The position numbers and the translations under genes are program-made. Below are positions 321-6,461 of a stretch of 6,572 bases of DNA, piece after piece. This DNA is from Deltaproteobacteria bacterium (GTDB lineage: Bacteria; JAUYMQ01), in NCBI GenBank assembly GCA_030698575.1, contig JAUYMQ010000364.1:1-6572 (forward strand), given 5' to 3'. How positions within the stretch are numbered: position 1 is the first letter of the stretch; each line of letters starts with the position of its first letter. The notes under the pieces were generated by a model. It did no database searches. It was given only the letters and a program-made list of their open reading frames with translations, and had not been told where the DNA came from.

Positions 321-1516
321 TGCAGCCCGTGAAACTTCCCCGGAATGTCAGGGTCTTCGGCGTCGCGAGCTTTCTGACCGACGTTCATAGTGAGATCGTC
401 CTTCCGCTCCTGCCGCTCTTCGTGACACAGGCACTCGGCTTGCCGGCGACCTTCCTGGGTTTCATCGAGGGGGTGGCGGACAGCTCGGCGAGCCTCGTCA
501 AGGTCGGCTCTGGCTGGCTCTCCGATCGCATGCGGCGGCGCAAGCCCCTCATCGTCGCCGGCTACACGCTCTCCACAATTGTGAAGCCGCTTCTCGCCGC
601 CGCATTCACCGGCTGGCAGGTGATGGCGATTCGCTTCGGCGATCGCGTGGGGAAAGGAATTCGCAGCGCGCCGCGGGACGCAGCGCTGGCCGACGCGGTG
701 CCGGAGGAGACGCGCGGGCACGCCTTCGGTTTCCACCGCGCGATGGACACCTTGGGCGCGGTCCTCGGCTCCGCGATCGCCTACGTGCTGATGCGGGAGA
801 CCGACGGCGCCTACCGGAGCATTTTTCTCTGGGCCGCCCTGCCTGGCGTCCTCGCCGTCCTGACGCTCGCGATCTTCCTGCGCGAGAGCCCGCGCCCGCC
901 TCACGCGCCGGTTTCCGCGGCCGCTGCGCCGGGCCGACCAAGCGCGCGCCTCGGCTGGTTCCTCGGCATTCACGGGCTCTTCTCGCTTGCGGATTTCAGC
1001 TACGCGATCTTCCTCCTTCGCGCCGAGAGCCTGGGCGTCGCCCCGGCTCTCATCCCCCTGGTCTATCTCGTCTACAACGTCTCCTACGCGGCCTTGCCGG
1101 TGCGCGCCGGGCGGCTGTCCGATCGCTGGGGGCGCGTTCCGGTGCTGATTGCCGGTTATGCCCTCTCGGCGCTCTGTTGCCTGGGCCTGGCACTTGCTTC
1201 GGCCGCGTGGATGGCCTGGGCGCTCCTGGCGCTCAACGGTGCCCGCATGGCGGTGACCTCGACCATCCCGCGCGCGCTCGCTGCCGATCTCTCGTCTTCC
1301 GCGCGACGGGGAACCGATCTCGGGATCTACCATCTGGTGGTGGGACTGGCGGCGCTGCCGGCGAGCGTCGTGGCCGGCCTGTTGTGGGACGGGCTCGGAC
1401 CGCGAGCGCCGTTCCTGTGGGCGGCGGCCGTGTCGCTCCTGGCGCTGGCGGCGATTATTTTATTGCGGGGAAGGATTTCGCCCGCGAAAGCCCGGAGGCG
1501 TCAGGAGATCCCGTAG
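320..1516 (+). CDS. MFS transporter, 12 transmembrane helices, substrate unknown
   Basis: Inner-membrane secondary transporter of the major facilitator superfamily, 398 residues, the usual length for a 12-helix member. Helix 1 carries the SFLTDVHSE motif with acidic D21 and E25. The MFS signature A loop between helices 2 and 3 is GWLSDRMRRRKP (65-76), and a degenerate copy, GRLSDRWGR (264-272), sits at the equivalent place in the second half, as expected from the internal duplication. A conserved loop RFGDRVGKGIRSAPRD (105-120) and HRAMDTLGAVLG (139-150) place it in a subgroup often annotated only as 'MFS transporter'. A hydrophilic Pro/Ala-rich linker (about 189-208) joins the two halves. 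The C-terminus is basic. The start is a GTG touching the upstream TAG; a second GTG at 329 is better spaced from a GAGATAGG element. The 3' end overlaps the convergent operon by 16 bp. Nothing in the sequence reveals the substrate; transport of arginine or related compounds cannot be claimed from proximity, because the gene is on the opposite strand. Confidence 0.88.
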   Translation: MQPVKLPRNVRVFGVASFLTDVHSEIVLPLLPLFVTQALGLPATFLGFIEGVADSSASLVKVGSGWLSDRMRRRKPLIVAGYTLSTIVKPLLAAAFTGWQVMAIRFGDRVGKGIRSAPRDAALADAVPEETRGHAFGFHRAMDTLGAVLGSAIAYVLMRETDGAYRSIFLWAALPGVLAVLTLAIFLRESPRPPHAPVSAAAAPGRPSARLGWFLGIHGLFSLADFSYAIFLLRAESLGVAPALIPLVYLVYNVSYAALPVRAGRLSDRWGRVPVLIAGYALSALCCLGLALASAAWMAWALLALNGARMAVTSTIPRALAADLSSSARRGTDLGIYHLVVGLAALPASVVAGLLWDGLGPRAPFLWAAAVSLLALAAIILLRGRISPAKARRRQEIP

Positions 1517-2499
1517 AGCGTGCGGTAGTCGCGTTCCTTCCGGAAGGCAGCGACCTCCGGGGGGAGCAGGTGTTCCTCTGTCGTCAACTCGCCCAGATCG
1601 CCGATCATGCACTTGACCGAGCCGCCCCCCTTCTTGAGGAATTCCCCCACGTCCACCGTGATCGGCTCCACCCCCGTCTCGCGCACCCGTGCGAGAAGCG
1701 CCTCGCTGACACCCACGGGCATTAGCAGGCAGTGTTTCCCCCGGAAGCGGAGCGCGAAGCTGTTGGCGGCGTAGAGGGCGGCGTCATCATCGGATAGGGG
1801 GATGAGGTGGTCGCCGCAGTACTTTTCGAGAAGGTCGCGCGAGGCGGGCGAGAGGCCCGGCAGGTAGGCGAGCAAGTGCTTGCGTCCGGGACCAAAGCTC
1901 GCGAGCACGGTGTCGCCGTGGTAGTAGCGCTCGTCGACAAGTTCCAGGCGGAGCAGTTTCCGCGCGGGGACGAGCGCGGCGAGCTCCGCCTCGGCGCGTG
2001 GCTCGGATCGGAAGCCGTACACGCGGCGCCAGGGAGGGAGGCCGAAGCGAGGGACGAAGCGCTGCCGCTCGAGCGGGCCGCAGGTGAACAGGAATACGTC
2101 GCCTGCCGGGATGAAGTCGGCTTCCCCCTCGAAGCGGTAGCGCGACTGCACGGGTGCGAAGCCGAGGCGGCTCAGGAAGTCGCGATAGACCGGCGTCTCC
2201 CCGGCGCGCGTCTCGATGAGATTCGACAGGAGATAGAACCGGGCCGTTGGCGGCGTCTCCCCGGGATCGGGCAGGAACCCCGCGTTGGCCGGATAGACGA
2301 GGCCGGGGCACGCGTCGCTCGGGGGAATGACAAACACGCGCACGTCGAGCGATACCAGCGCGCCGGCCAGGGCATGCCACTGCGCGATGGCCTCTGCCCG
2401 CGAGACGCGCTTGCGCAAGCCGAGGCGGTTGCGGGTGTGCGGATTGGCGCCCCCGCGGACGCTGAAGTGCGCCGGGTCGCCCATGAGGACCGCCCTCAC
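1501..2499 (-). CDS. Amidinotransferase/dihydrolase-fold enzyme, probable N-succinylarginine dihydrolase substitute (AstB role)
   Basis: 332-residue member of the guanidino-group modifying (amidinotransferase, DDAH, arginine deiminase) superfamily. The likely catalytic Cys297 lies in GGGSVKCM (291-298), the family's C-terminal nucleophile motif. The likely catalytic His194 is in RYYHGDT (191-197). The acidic substrate-binding block is FEGEADFIPAGD (123-134). ANAG (71-74) supplies Asn72, at the place where dihydrolases such as AstB and cyanobacterial ArgZ/AgrE carry Asn, whereas deiminases carry Asp. YAANSF (243-248) is the usual pre-terminal block. Canonical AstB is about 440-450 residues, so this is a much shorter protein. 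It directly follows astD in a GTGA overlap, the position of astB in astCADBE. I infer it converts N2-succinylarginine to N2-succinylornithine, 2 NH3 and CO2. An arginine deiminase, a DDAH-like hydrolase, or a direct arginine dihydrolase remain alternatives. The GTG start is chosen because GGGAG sits 6 nt upstream; an ATG at 2484 is possible. Confidence 0.8.
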   Translation of the reverse strand: MRAVLMGDPAHFSVRGGANPHTRNRLGLRKRVSRAEAIAQWHALAGALVSLDVRVFVIPPSDACPGLVYPANAGFLPDPGETPPTARFYLLSNLIETRAGETPVYRDFLSRLGFAPVQSRYRFEGEADFIPAGDVFLFTCGPLERQRFVPRFGLPPWRRVYGFRSEPRAEAELAALVPARKLLRLELVDERYYHGDTVLASFGPGRKHLLAYLPGLSPASRDLLEKYCGDHLIPLSDDDAALYAANSFALRFRGKHCLLMPVGVSEALLARVRETGVEPITVDVGEFLKKGGGSVKCMIGDLGELTTEEHLLPPEVAAFRKERDYRTLYGIS

Positions 2500-3989
2500 G
2501 GCGTTCTCCCAGGCCAGGGAACGCCTGGCGGTAGCGAGGCGGGGTCGAAGGGCGCCTCGGTCTCGAGGGAAGCCACCGGGTAGGTGCAGTACACGGGCGC
2601 CAGGAGGGCGCTCGGGAAGTCGTTGCCGCTCCGCCTCCGACCGCCGAATGGGAGAGTCGAGGGGGCGCCCGCTGTTCCGCGGTTCCAGTTCAGCACTCCC
2701 ACCTCGCTGCGGAAGAACGCCTCCTCGTAGGCCGCCCGGCTGCGCGTGAAGATCGCGAGGGCGAGCCCATAGTCCGTCGCGTCCTGGGCGGACAGCGCCT
2801 CGTCGAGCCCGTCCACGACGAGCACAGAGACATCGGGGCCGAAGATCTCTTCCTGCTGGTACCGGCTGGCACGATCAACACGCTCGATACGGTGGACGCC
2901 CGGCGATACGTAGTGGCCGCGGCGGGTCGTGTCGGGGCGGTGGGCCTCGAGCAGGGCCTCGGCGCCTTCCTTCTCCGCGCTCTCAACGAGATCGAAGAAC
3001 CGGTGAAGCGCTCGTTCGGTGGCGAGGGGCCCCAAAAAGGTTTCCGGGTCGGCCCCGTGCCCGATGCGGGCCGCGCGGGCCAGGGAGAGGAAGCGGGCGA
3101 GGAAGGGATCCGCGACGCGGCGATCGAGGATTAGGCGGCTGGTCGCCGTGCAGCGCTGGCCAGTGGTTTGAAAAGCCGCGAGGAAGCACTCGGCCGCCGC
3201 GCGATCGAGATCAGCGTCATGCAGCACAATGGCCGCGTTCTTCCCACCCATCTCGAGGGCAAGGATTTTACCGGGCTGATCCCGCGTCGCCTCGCGAACC
3301 CGCGTTCCCGTCTCCCAGCTCCCGGTGAACAGCACCCCCTTCACATCCGCATGCCGCGCCAGGCGGGCGCCGCTCTCCCCGTCGCCTTGCACGAGATTGA
3401 AGACGCCCGGGGGCAGGCCGGCGCCTTCCCAGCACTCGGCGACGATCTGTGATACGCCCGGCGCGATCTCGGAGGGCTTCAACACGACGCAGTTGCCCGT
3501 GGCGAGCGCCGGCACTATGTGGCCGTTCGGAAGATGGAGGGGGAAGTTGTAAGGGCCGAGTACGGCGAGCACGCCACGAGACCGGAAGCGGCAACGGCCG
3601 CCGGCGACCTCGAAAGGAGCCACAAACCGAAGCGCCTCGTCGAGCGTGACGGCCACCTTGCCGACTGCGGCGGCGACTTCCTGCCGCGCCTCGTGAAGGG
3701 TCTTGCCCATCTCGCCCACGATGGCGAGGGCGGCTTCGTCGGCGCGCTTTTCGAGAAGCGTGGCGAAGCGGCGCAGGACGGTGTGACGCGCCTCCGGGCG
3801 GAGCTTCGCCCAGGCGGGCCAGGCGCGATGAGCGGCCTCGACGGCCTCATCCACCGCGGCGTGGCGAAAGGGGTAGCGGGCGGCCGGGGCGTCGAGATCG
3901 CCCGGGTCAGGGCACCGGATCTCGCCGTCGGGAGTGCCGGGCGGGACGAACTGTCCCGCCAGATAATCACCCCGCCCCTGGATGGCCAT
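2496..3989 (-). CDS. astD: N-succinylglutamate 5-semialdehyde dehydrogenase (AstD)
   Basis: NAD(P)-dependent aldehyde dehydrogenase, 497 residues, which oxidises N2-succinylglutamate semialdehyde to N2-succinylglutamate, the fourth step of the AST route. The full ALDH catalytic set is visible: Asn148 in LGPYNFP (144-150), Lys171 in KPSE, the general base Glu246 in LEMGGKN (245-251), and the nucleophile Cys280 in GQRCTATSR (277-285), followed by EEIFGP (380-385). The AstD subfamily is indicated by the N-terminal GDYLAGQFV, by PLHLPNGHIVPALATGN after PYNFP, and above all by the C-terminal PFGGRRRSGNDFPSA and YPVASLE stretches. Other ALDHs lack this combination. GAGGT (3995-3999) lies 5 nt before the ATG and supports the start. 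It sits 15 nt after astA and overlaps the next gene by 4 nt, so it is an internal operon gene. No key residue is missing. Confidence 0.94.
   Translation of the reverse strand: MAIQGRGDYLAGQFVPPGTPDGEIRCPDPGDLDAPAARYPFRHAAVDEAVEAAHRAWPAWAKLRPEARHTVLRRFATLLEKRADEAALAIVGEMGKTLHEARQEVAAAVGKVAVTLDEALRFVAPFEVAGGRCRFRSRGVLAVLGPYNFPLHLPNGHIVPALATGNCVVLKPSEIAPGVSQIVAECWEGAGLPPGVFNLVQGDGESGARLARHADVKGVLFTGSWETGTRVREATRDQPGKILALEMGGKNAAIVLHDADLDRAAAECFLAAFQTTGQRCTATSRLILDRRVADPFLARFLSLARAARIGHGADPETFLGPLATERALHRFFDLVESAEKEGAEALLEAHRPDTTRRGHYVSPGVHRIERVDRASRYQQEEIFGPDVSVLVVDGLDEALSAQDATDYGLALAIFTRSRAAYEEAFFRSEVGVLNWNRGTAGAPSTLPFGGRRRSGNDFPSALLAPVYCTYPVASLETEAPFDPASLPPGVPWPGRTP
2506..2510 (-). promoter_or_regulatory. 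Ribosome binding site supporting the GTG start of the dihydrolase gene
   Basis: On the minus strand GGGAG lies 6 nt before the GTG at 2499-2497, inside the last codons of astD. It favours this GTG, which overlaps the astD stop as GTGA, over the internal ATG at 2484-2482. The overlap suggests translational coupling of the two genes. Confidence 0.55.
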
Positions 3990-4004
3990 GAGAGACCTCG
4001 CCTG

Positions 4005-5030
4005 TCAGGGAATGGGCGTGACGGCCACCGGCGCGCCGGCGCGAGCGCCGATCGCTTCGCAGTGCTCGTCCGCCACGACGACCGCCTCGGCATCGAGAAC
4101 GACCGGCGCCGCAACGGCGCGGAAACCCGCCTTGCGCTCGTGGGAAATGATCGCACGACGAGCCTTCGCCGGGTCGGGCGCTTCGGGCCGGACGGAGCGG
4201 AGCACGGTATCTCGAAGGAGCGTCACGTCCTTCATCGGCGCGCCGAGGTAGGGACCGCCGTCGAAGGGATCGATCTGCTCGAGATACCGGAGCCCGATCT
4301 TCTCGAGCAGGTGACGCGCGCCCCGGGCCCCGGGGGCCACTTCTCCCAGCAGGCGCTGCACCCGCTCGGGGAACATGGTCAGGTAGAGCGGCGACCGGGG
4401 GAAGAGCGAGAGGATGAAGTTCTTGTCGGTGATGCTCAGACGGTCGGCCTCGCGGTAGTCCAGGCCAGTGAACTTGCGGCCATAAATTTCCCAGAAGAGG
4501 TTCCTCCCGGGTTCATCGAGCGGCGAGAGAAGCTCGGCCAGCACCTCTTTCTGAAATCGTTCCGGGTGGCGCGCGATGAAGTTGAAGCGCACGTAGCTGA
4601 GCTGCATCCCGAGCTGTTCTGGCGCGCGGCGGTAGTCGGGATGGAGGATGAGGCCCCCGACCTCGGTGGGGCCATCTGTCGTGTAGCCGAGCTGCAGAAC
4701 GCGGTGCTGGAAATCCCGGAGCGGGACCTCGCTGTGACGTTCCTCGGTCTGGACCTCCATGAAGAAATGCGGAGACGTGACAGTGCCGTGCTTGGCGATG
4801 ACGAGGCTCGTGCCGATCACGCGGCCGCGCTGCCGGTCCTCGAGAACGAAGACGTATTCCCCGCCGGCCAGCTGCTGTCGGAAACTGCGCTCGGAAGTGG
4901 CCAGGAGGCCGCGCAGGAGCGCCCGGTCCCGTGGCAGGTTCATCGTGTCGAGCAGCTCCGCAAGCGTCTCGATGGCATCGAGATCGCCCGGATGCCCCTC
5001 CCTGATGACGTAGCGCATCTCCTGCGTCAT
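4005..5030 (-). CDS. astA: Arginine N-succinyltransferase (AstA)
   Basis: GNAT-fold acyltransferase of 341 residues, close to the usual length of about 340. It transfers succinyl from succinyl-CoA to the alpha-amino group of arginine, the committed step of the AST pathway. Family marks in order: N-terminal IREGHPGDLDAIETLA (9-24), YVFVLED (59-65), the central GLILHPDYR (126-134) with the following helix LSYVRFNFIA, FWEIYGRKFTGLDYREAD (179-196), and the hallmark FDGGP near the C-terminus (256-260) preceded by YLEQID. The segment around 81-125 differs clearly from what I recall of the E. coli enzyme, so this is a divergent subgroup. One gene encodes the enzyme, unlike the paired AruF/AruG of Pseudomonas. 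The ATG at 5030 is 21 nt after the M20 gene stop. No strong Shine-Dalgarno is visible; an ATG at 5018 directly abuts GGAG and is therefore less likely. Ornithine or another basic amino acid could be an additional substrate. Confidence 0.93.
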   Translation of the reverse strand: MTQEMRYVIREGHPGDLDAIETLAELLDTMNLPRDRALLRGLLATSERSFRQQLAGGEYVFVLEDRQRGRVIGTSLVIAKHGTVTSPHFFMEVQTEERHSEVPLRDFQHRVLQLGYTTDGPTEVGGLILHPDYRRAPEQLGMQLSYVRFNFIARHPERFQKEVLAELLSPLDEPGRNLFWEIYGRKFTGLDYREADRLSITDKNFILSLFPRSPLYLTMFPERVQRLLGEVAPGARGARHLLEKIGLRYLEQIDPFDGGPYLGAPMKDVTLLRDTVLRSVRPEAPDPAKARRAIISHERKAGFRAVAAPVVLDAEAVVVADEHCEAIGARAGAPVAVTPIP

Positions 5031-5051
5031 GGTTTGCCGCCGAGCGTGGCT

Positions 5052-6461
5052 TCAGAGGCAGAGCCGCTCGATCATCCTCGTGTAGAAGGCGATGGCCTTC
5101 TCGCATTCGCTGAGAAGGTTGTGCTCGTTCGCGCGATGCACGTTCCCCACGGATTCGCCCGGCCCGAACACGATCGAGTCGATTCCCATCTGTGAATAGA
5201 TCGCCGCCTCGGTGCAGGTTGCCTTCGTGTCCGCCTCGGCGGGAAGCCCGATTTCCGCGAGCACCTCCTGGGCCGTCCCCAGGAGCTGGCCATCGCGGGC
5301 GTCGCGCATGGGCGGGTTCGACCGGAGGTTGTGAATCTGGATGATGCCGTCGGGATGGGCGTTGGAAAGCTGATCCTCGAGTCGGGCGACGGCTTCCGCC
5401 ACTTCGTCCATCGGAAGCCCCGGCACCGGGCGAACCTCGAAATTGAGGCGGACGATCCCCTCGACCGTTTCGATCCGGCCGACGTTCATGGTCGTCATCG
5501 GGGGATCGAACCCCTCCTCCTTGAATTCCGCCAGTCGTCCCTCGAGTTCCCGCAGCGCTTCCAGAACACCCTGGAGAACCGGCACCCCGCCCAGCGCCCG
5601 GCCCGCGCAGGGCCCCCGCTGTTCTATGCGGGCGCCCGCGGCAATGGCCTCGCTGGCGACGGTCTCGTCGCTGGCGAGCACGAGCGAGCAGCGGTTCGGA
5701 ACGACGTTCGTGGCTGTTCCCCCGTGGATCCCGAAGACGCGGAGAGGATGGCCCCGCCGGAGAAGATCGGAGACGAGTTCGAGGGCCGTGAGAATGGCGT
5801 TCGCTCCGAGCGAGGGGGTGCTCGCATGCGCCGCCGTGCCGGGGAACACGACCTCGATCATCTCGATGCGCTCCTCGGGCGCGGGCGTGCCCGAGGCCGG
5901 GTCGATCCGGATCTCCCAGACGGCGAGCCCCTTGTGTGCGCGGATGGGACGCAGATGGGAGGGCTCGCCCACCAGTGCGTGGGCGAACTGGAAGTAGCCT
6001 CCTTCGACCAGCGCTTGCGCGCCCCGAAGCCCCACCTCCTCGCCATGGGTGCCCACGAGCGCCACCCGGTGCCGGAAGGGAACGCCGCGGAACTCCTCGA
6101 GCGCCTTCAGCTTGCAGAGAAAGTCGAGCTTGGCGTCGGCGCTGCCGAGGCCGTAGATTCGATCCCCGTCGACCGTTGCGCGGAACGGTTCGCCGCCGCA
6201 GGAAGTCCAGGCAGCCGGATCGCCCGGTGGAACCGTGTCAAGGTGGGTGTTCAGCAGAAGATCGTCGCGCGACTTGCTCCCCTTCTCGGCGATCAGGTTG
6301 ACCTGCTGCACGCCGCGGAAAGCGGCCTCCTCGAGGCGCACCGTGAGGTCCGTTGGCGCGATGAGCCCGGCCAGATGCCGCGCGATTTCACCGGTCCCGT
6401 GCTCGCTGACCGAGATGATGCCGATGATCCGGCGCGCCTCTTCCAGAAAATCGAATCCCAT
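5052..6461 (-). CDS. M20 family metallohydrolase (ArgE/DapE type), probable N-succinylglutamate desuccinylase substitute (AstE role)
   Basis: 469-residue dinuclear zinc amidohydrolase of the M20/ArgE/DapE/ACY1 family, probably cytosolic as no signal peptide is seen. Metal and catalytic motifs are complete: THLDTVPPG (72-80, ligand His73), GLGSADAK (104-111, bridging Asp109), GTHGEEVG (137-144, general base Glu141 and ligand Glu142), GEPS (165-168, ligand Glu166) and VHRANE (441-446, ligand His442). The lid-domain His is His212 in GTAAHASTP. Relatives remove succinyl, acetyl or other acyl groups from amino acids. Heading an operon with astA and astD, it is best read as hydrolysing N2-succinylglutamate to glutamate and succinate, replacing the unrelated AstE of E. 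coli. This is inference: an aminoacylase, dipeptidase, ArgE or DapE activity cannot be excluded. It is longer than typical DapE/ArgE (about 375-385 residues), with extra sequence in the middle (roughly 265-325). GGAG lies 6 nt before the ATG. Confidence 0.87.
   Translation of the reverse strand: MGFDFLEEARRIIGIISVSEHGTGEIARHLAGLIAPTDLTVRLEEAAFRGVQQVNLIAEKGSKSRDDLLLNTHLDTVPPGDPAAWTSCGGEPFRATVDGDRIYGLGSADAKLDFLCKLKALEEFRGVPFRHRVALVGTHGEEVGLRGAQALVEGGYFQFAHALVGEPSHLRPIRAHKGLAVWEIRIDPASGTPAPEERIEMIEVVFPGTAAHASTPSLGANAILTALELVSDLLRRGHPLRVFGIHGGTATNVVPNRCSLVLASDETVASEAIAAGARIEQRGPCAGRALGGVPVLQGVLEALRELEGRLAEFKEEGFDPPMTTMNVGRIETVEGIVRLNFEVRPVPGLPMDEVAEAVARLEDQLSNAHPDGIIQIHNLRSNPPMRDARDGQLLGTAQEVLAEIGLPAEADTKATCTEAAIYSQMGIDSIVFGPGESVGNVHRANEHNLLSECEKAIAFYTRMIERLCL

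Follow-up and report, generated by a model that had tools for sequence, protein, structure and literature searches.

Which enzyme acts on N-succinylarginine in an arginine succinyltransferase (AST) operon that carries astA and astD but no recognizable astB? The question is raised by the 6,572-nt stretch of DNA analysed here (the window), in which a 332-aa protein is encoded in the astB slot of such an operon. A sequence-only reading of the window had proposed that this protein belongs to a distinct family of N-succinylarginine dihydrolases. We consider it likely that the gene encodes an N-succinylarginine dihydrolase replacing AstB in a variant AST operon.

The operon consists of four packed genes on the minus strand, in the order M20, astA, astD and, last, the gene of the 332-aa protein, with gaps of 21 nt and 15 nt followed by a GTGA overlap between the TGA stop of astD (2498-2496) and the GTG start of the last gene (2499-2497) (Table 1). 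The open reading frames and the sequence bear out the earlier description of an astA-astD-332-aa gene order with GTGA coupling to astD, and this arrangement is not due to chance because it recurs in dozens of genomes. The M20 gene, which the sequence-only reading did not name, belongs to the operon, probably in the role of AstE. On the plus strand, an MFS gene (320-1516) is convergent with the 332-aa gene and overlaps its 3' end, and a C-terminal fragment at the contig edge (2-319) appears by eye to be peptidoglycan transglycosylase-like (NAVDWGPGGRGIGRAARAYYGR). A 558-aa open frame on the plus strand (3519-5195), antisense to astD and astA, was dismissed as a high-GC shadow, as were other large antisense ORFs.

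Table 1. Coordinates of the operon genes and of the codons and motifs of the 332-aa protein in the window.
Feature	Position	Strand	Evidence or conservation
ArgZ-like guanidine hydrolase gene in astB slot, 332 aa, GTG start	1501..2499	-	ORF; NCBIfam/PDB sequence matches to ArgZ/AgrE and DDAH only; model pLDDT 93; fold match to ArgZ and AstB
GTGA overlap, astD stop/start of 332-aa gene (translational coupling)	2496..2499	-	sequence
astD, N-succinylglutamate 5-semialdehyde dehydrogenase	2496..3989	-	best matches PRK09457 and TIGR03240; TIGR03240 412 bits, E 4e-123, cut-off 579 not reached
astA, arginine N-succinyltransferase (AstA/AOST family)	4005..5030	-	PF04958 296 bits, cut-off 29.4; sole copy in genome
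M20 metallo-deacylase (ArgE/DapE-like), proposed AstE substitute (N-succinylglutamate desuccinylase)	5052..6461	-	PF01546 100.6 bits; homologue at same place in other loci
Cys297 codon, nucleophile	1609..1611	-	invariant 68/68
His194 codon, catalytic base, HGD motif	1918..1920	-	invariant 68/68
Arg164 codon, second alpha-carboxylate-binding Arg by alignment	2008..2010	-	invariant in family and 19/19 other GMEs
Family-specific 19-residue insert, residues 142-160, absent from ArgZ-type enzymes	2020..2076	-	alignment; Gln146, Arg147, Pro155, Arg159 nearly invariant
Glu124 codon, catalytic acid of FEGEAD block	2128..2130	-	invariant 68/68
Arg98 codon, alpha-carboxylate-binding Arg by alignment	2206..2208	-	invariant in family and 19/19 other GMEs
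Asn72 codon, dihydrolase-type Asn	2284..2286	-	invariant 68/68
Gly66 codon, six residues before Asn72	2302..2304	-	invariant 68/68; Asp/Asn in 16/19 other GMEs, Ser/Ala in AstB
N-terminal lid motif FSVxGGANPHTR, residues 12-23, in place of (D/G)VxYxINPWM-type motif of ArgZ/DDAH-type enzymes	2431..2466	-	alignment

In searches of NCBIfam and of PDB sequences, the 332-aa protein matches only one side of the guanidino-modifying superfamily, that of ArgZ/AgrE and DDAH. No NCBIfam model reaches its cut-off on the protein: NF045659 (DDAH) gives 128.6 bits (cut-off 300), NF052232 (ArgZ/AgrE arginine dihydrolase) 83.3 bits (cut-off 450), and NF046062 (CtlX) 15.9 bits with an E of 0.005 (cut-off 334). 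The expectation that current annotation would label the protein only as an amidinotransferase was roughly right, given these scores and the Pfam match to PF19420 "DDAH_eukar" at 32.6 bits, above its cut-off of 23. Among plasmid records, the matches are actinobacterial only (27-32%) and the named ones are called dimethylargininase; a scan of viral contigs with the protein gave no match. The AlphaFold2 model (mean pLDDT 93) has the alpha/beta propeller fold, and its best solved match in Foldseek is ArgZ (6jv1, E 4.8e-23). VIA-align superimposes the model on the same ArgZ structure with a Z of 35.9 and an rmsd of 1.8 over 263 residues, and on AstB (1yni) with a Z of 28.5 and an rmsd of 3.6 over 303 residues.

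By sequence, the 332-aa protein is not AstB. No match to PF04996 (AstB) was found at E 0.001 in the window genome or in any of 50 further carriers, with E. coli and Caulobacter positive as controls. A PDB search with the family profile finds ArgZ at 6e-31 (ArgZ/AgrE near 1e-30) but picks up none of the AstB chains even at an E of 1, and a profile-profile comparison of the family with AstB gives a probability of 4% (E 0.01). The protein was also correctly described as about 110 residues shorter, with 332 aa versus 447 aa in E. coli AstB. If it were a true, highly diverged AstB ortholog and not a replacement, the common fold superfamily would follow directly, as would the structural alignment covering more residues of AstB than of ArgZ, and one tree does put AstB weakly among family members (support 24/88). 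However, the AstB branch of that tree is 6 changes per site long and the placement is unreliable for this reason. With the profile searches also against it, we regard such an ortholog as highly improbable. A "TR.R" motif common to E. coli AstB and the family was dropped, as AstB does not conserve it. The proposal of a family distinct from AstB is largely supported: the family is compact, lacks any PF04996 match, and is tied to astA and astD.

We found 70 loci of the family in a scan of genome contigs, with 42-60% identity to the window protein. Their hosts are Binatia, Myxococcota-like Deltaproteobacteria, Omnitrophota, Lindowbacteria, Nitrospinae, and others, mostly uncultured bacteria. Same-strand astA and/or astD accompany the family gene in 50/70 loci, and astD lies within 60 nt of it in 37 of the 42 loci having astD. 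The typical Myxococcota-type loci (e.g., L020, L022, L033, and L076) run aminotransferase (PF00202)-astA-astD-family gene, which is the C-A-D-B order of E. coli, and the Omnitrophota-type loci run M20-astA-astD-family gene, as in the window; L085 combines the two in a complete set, aminotransferase-M20-astA-astD-family gene (C-E'-A-D-X). A homologue of the M20 gene occupies the same place as in the window in, for example, L052, L066, L070, L078, and L085. Searching with E. coli AstE by tblastn gave no homologue in any fetched family locus; hence, AstE may be replaced as well as AstB in such operons. In many Binatia-type loci, the family gene stands apart from astA, though AstA is encoded elsewhere in the genome; an M20 gene and often an aminotransferase gene adjoin astA in genomes of this type. 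The AST module was rearranged in a mostly Binatia-type group (L101-L109 and L113), where astA is convergent with the M20 gene and, in several cases, with an aminotransferase gene, and the dihydrolase gene lies elsewhere.

The genome survey that had been suggested, for co-occurrence with astA and astD where astB is absent, gave AstA in 48/51 carrier genomes, usually adjoining, and AstB in 0/51. The outcome named in advance as speaking against the proposal was a canonical astB at another place in the genome, together with a gene not co-conserved with astA and astD; the opposite was observed. Among 192 diverse genomes, AstA occurs in 5/188 non-carriers; the contrast with 48/51 is very large, but two samplings and related genomes are combined in it and its Fisher p should not be read at face value. 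In the same 192 genomes AstA is found in eight, three with AstB, three with the family, and two with neither (overlap p ~2e-4), and AstB (three genomes) and the family (four carriers) never occur together. The phylum of genome G028 has AstB in 90/195 and the family in 0/195 at E 1e-50, the same profile matching known carriers as a positive control. Three carriers have no detectable AstA, two of which (L017 and L046) have astD beside the family gene; the L017 record gives the same match as G086.

Two loci with AstA fall outside both groups. The cluster L099 (G130:C10) has the order aminotransferase-M20-AstA-AstD, with neither AstB nor a family member, in a genome rated 100% complete, and is possibly an ornithine succinyltransferase route. 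In L100 (G175:C8, 7253-9140), a solitary astA is followed by an ORF that looks by eye like a carbon-nitrogen hydrolase; genome G175 has neither AstB nor a family member.

Residue conservation was counted over 68 full-length family members, with 19 other guanidino-modifying enzymes (GMEs) as the comparison set. Asn72, Arg98, Glu124, Asp128, Arg164, His194, Asp196, Lys296, and Cys297 are unvarying in 68/68. The residues picked out beforehand, namely Cys297, His194, the F123-EGEAD block, and Asn72 in ANAG, are all present and invariant except F123, which is Met in 5/68, and the argument built on Asn72 as a dihydrolase-type Asn stands. In ArgZ and AstB, an Asn at the position equivalent to 72 is associated with two rounds of hydrolysis and therefore with an ornithine-type rather than a citrulline-type product; the 332-aa enzyme would be expected to do the same. 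The DDAH-type matches (NF045659 below its cut-off and PF19420 above) would also fit an N-succinylarginine deiminase whose end product is N-succinylcitrulline, or an enzyme hydrolysing some other arginine derivative, N-acylated or methylated, but deiminases have Asp at the position of the invariant Asn72, and the family keeps Asp196 where DDAHs have Lys (PMC11659421). Furthermore, no gene for the use of succinylcitrulline was seen in the conserved operon across the family loci. Of the alternative functions, deimination or action on another N-acylarginine is the less likely, and quite improbable.

The substrate of the preferred dihydrolase may be read from the residues around the amino-acid end of the pocket. 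Arg98 and Arg164 map by alignment onto Arg98 and Arg145 of DDAH1, and would bind the alpha-carboxylate. Human DDAH1 holds the alpha-amine through Asp73, which lies six positions ahead of Asp79, the residue that binds the guanidinium (PMC10958460); the counterpart of Asp73 in the family is Gly66. NnhA, which has a non-amino-acid substrate, carries Gly143 for the amine-binding Asp, six before Trp149 at the guanidinium position, and has also lost the carboxylate arginines (PMC11659421). The family has retained the carboxylate site but not the amine site, and this alignment-based argument, with contacts carried over from DDAH1 and NnhA, points to a blocked alpha-amine, the change expected for an N-alpha-acylated arginine. 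The lid motif, the insert, Gly66, and Ala127 may provide the residues contacting the succinyl group; Ala127 is present in 68/68 members and equals AstB Ala177, in contrast to the Gly of 18/19 other GMEs.

The main rival to this assignment is an ArgZ/AgrE-like arginine dihydrolase working on free arginine, in which ornithine would be made first and AstA would then succinylate ornithine, the first two steps being swapped. The AstA family takes both arginine and ornithine, and the top-scoring NCBIfam model of the window AstA is the combined arginine/ornithine TIGR03243. The nearest characterised relatives of the 332-aa protein use free arginine, and the G130 cluster without a dihydrolase fits ornithine as the AstA substrate. 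In addition, CtlX, a distant arginine deiminase relative and proposed citrullinase encoded beside ornithine/arginine succinyltransferase genes, has been proposed to feed ornithine to the succinyltransferase pathway (PMC9007349). However, Gly66 is invariant where ArgZ has Asp, the N-terminal motif of ArgZ and other free-amino-acid enzymes is swapped for FSVxGGANPHTR with the 19-residue insert added, and AstB, found in none of the carriers tested, comes after AstA in the pathway. We consider free arginine an unlikely substrate and prefer N-succinylarginine.

Among known systems, the dihydrolase domain of ArgZ (Synechocystis Sll1336) and AgrE (Anabaena Alr4995) is nearest to the 332-aa protein by sequence and predicted fold, with identical catalytic Cys, His, Glu, and Asn (C297, H194, E124, and N72) and both carboxylate-binding Arg residues kept. 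The differences lie in the missing ornithine cyclodeaminase domain, the Gly for Asp six before Asn, the other N-terminal lid motif, the 19-residue insert, the HGD instead of HLD, and the ast operon setting. In the case of E. coli AstB (PF04996), the operon slot, the fold superfamily, the Asn in an (A)NA motif, the small residue at the amine position, and the Ala after the catalytic Glu-Gly-x are alike, but there is no detectable sequence family match, the lengths differ, the family core is nearer ArgZ, and the two are distributed complementarily among genomes. DDAH (dimethylargininase; PF19420 and NF045659) has the same core fold and Cys/His/acid set, whereas the family has Asn72 for Asp79, Gly66 for the amine-binding Asp73, and Asp196 for Lys. 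CtlX is likewise a guanidino-type hydrolase tied to the succinyltransferase pathway (PMC9007349), but it is a weak match (NF046062) with Asn in place of the guanidinium-type Asp196 of the family.

For N-succinylarginine hydrolysis by the 332-aa enzyme, we infer the following chemistry. AstA would make N-succinylarginine, and Cys297 would attack its guanidinium carbon, with His194 and Glu124 as acid/base, giving N-succinylarginine + 2 H2O -> N-succinylornithine + 2 NH3 + CO2. Asn72, instead of the Asp of deiminases, would let the citrulline-type intermediate undergo a second hydrolysis, as in ArgZ/AgrE and AstB. A class-III aminotransferase in the AstC role, AstD, and the M20 deacylase in the AstE role could then yield glutamate and succinate. 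Within the guanidino-modifying enzymes, the 332-aa enzyme would trace back to the ArgZ/DDAH branch and not to AstB. We lean towards a second origin of N-succinylarginine dihydrolase from an ArgZ/DDAH-type ancestor that lost its amine-binding acid and had its lid remodelled. We likewise lean towards the resulting variant AST pathway (AstA and AstD, with B replaced and, at many loci, E too) being, in Binatia, Myxococcota-like Deltaproteobacteria, and Omnitrophota, a main route of arginine catabolism that current profiles miss. Several observations count against the replacement of AstB: the G130 cluster, where the rest of the AST module, with neither AstB nor the family, can run without a dihydrolase, perhaps starting at ornithine; the many Binatia loci with the gene away from astA and the three carriers without detectable AstA; the window genome, whose class-III aminotransferase matches are weak only, with no clear AstC; and the overall similarity to free-arginine enzymes.

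A literature search, with most subscription journals outside its reach, found no description of such an AstB replacement; the reaction, the pathway and the superfamily are all known, and what apparently differs is the branch of the superfamily that does the work. If true, the assignment would supply the astB step for genomes with astA and astD but without AstB, explaining an apparent pathway hole, and would correct annotations that at present suggest dimethylarginine metabolism. It would also be a clear case of two branches of the superfamily arriving at one substrate by making the amine-site residue small. An acid versus a small residue six before the guanidinium-binding Asp/Asn would then distinguish free from N-acylated arginine, a sequence rule applicable to other unassigned members of the superfamily. 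Near the Myxococcota-type operons, a MATE transporter and an endonuclease/phosphatase-type protein recur as extra genes, which we judged to be syntenic neighbours.
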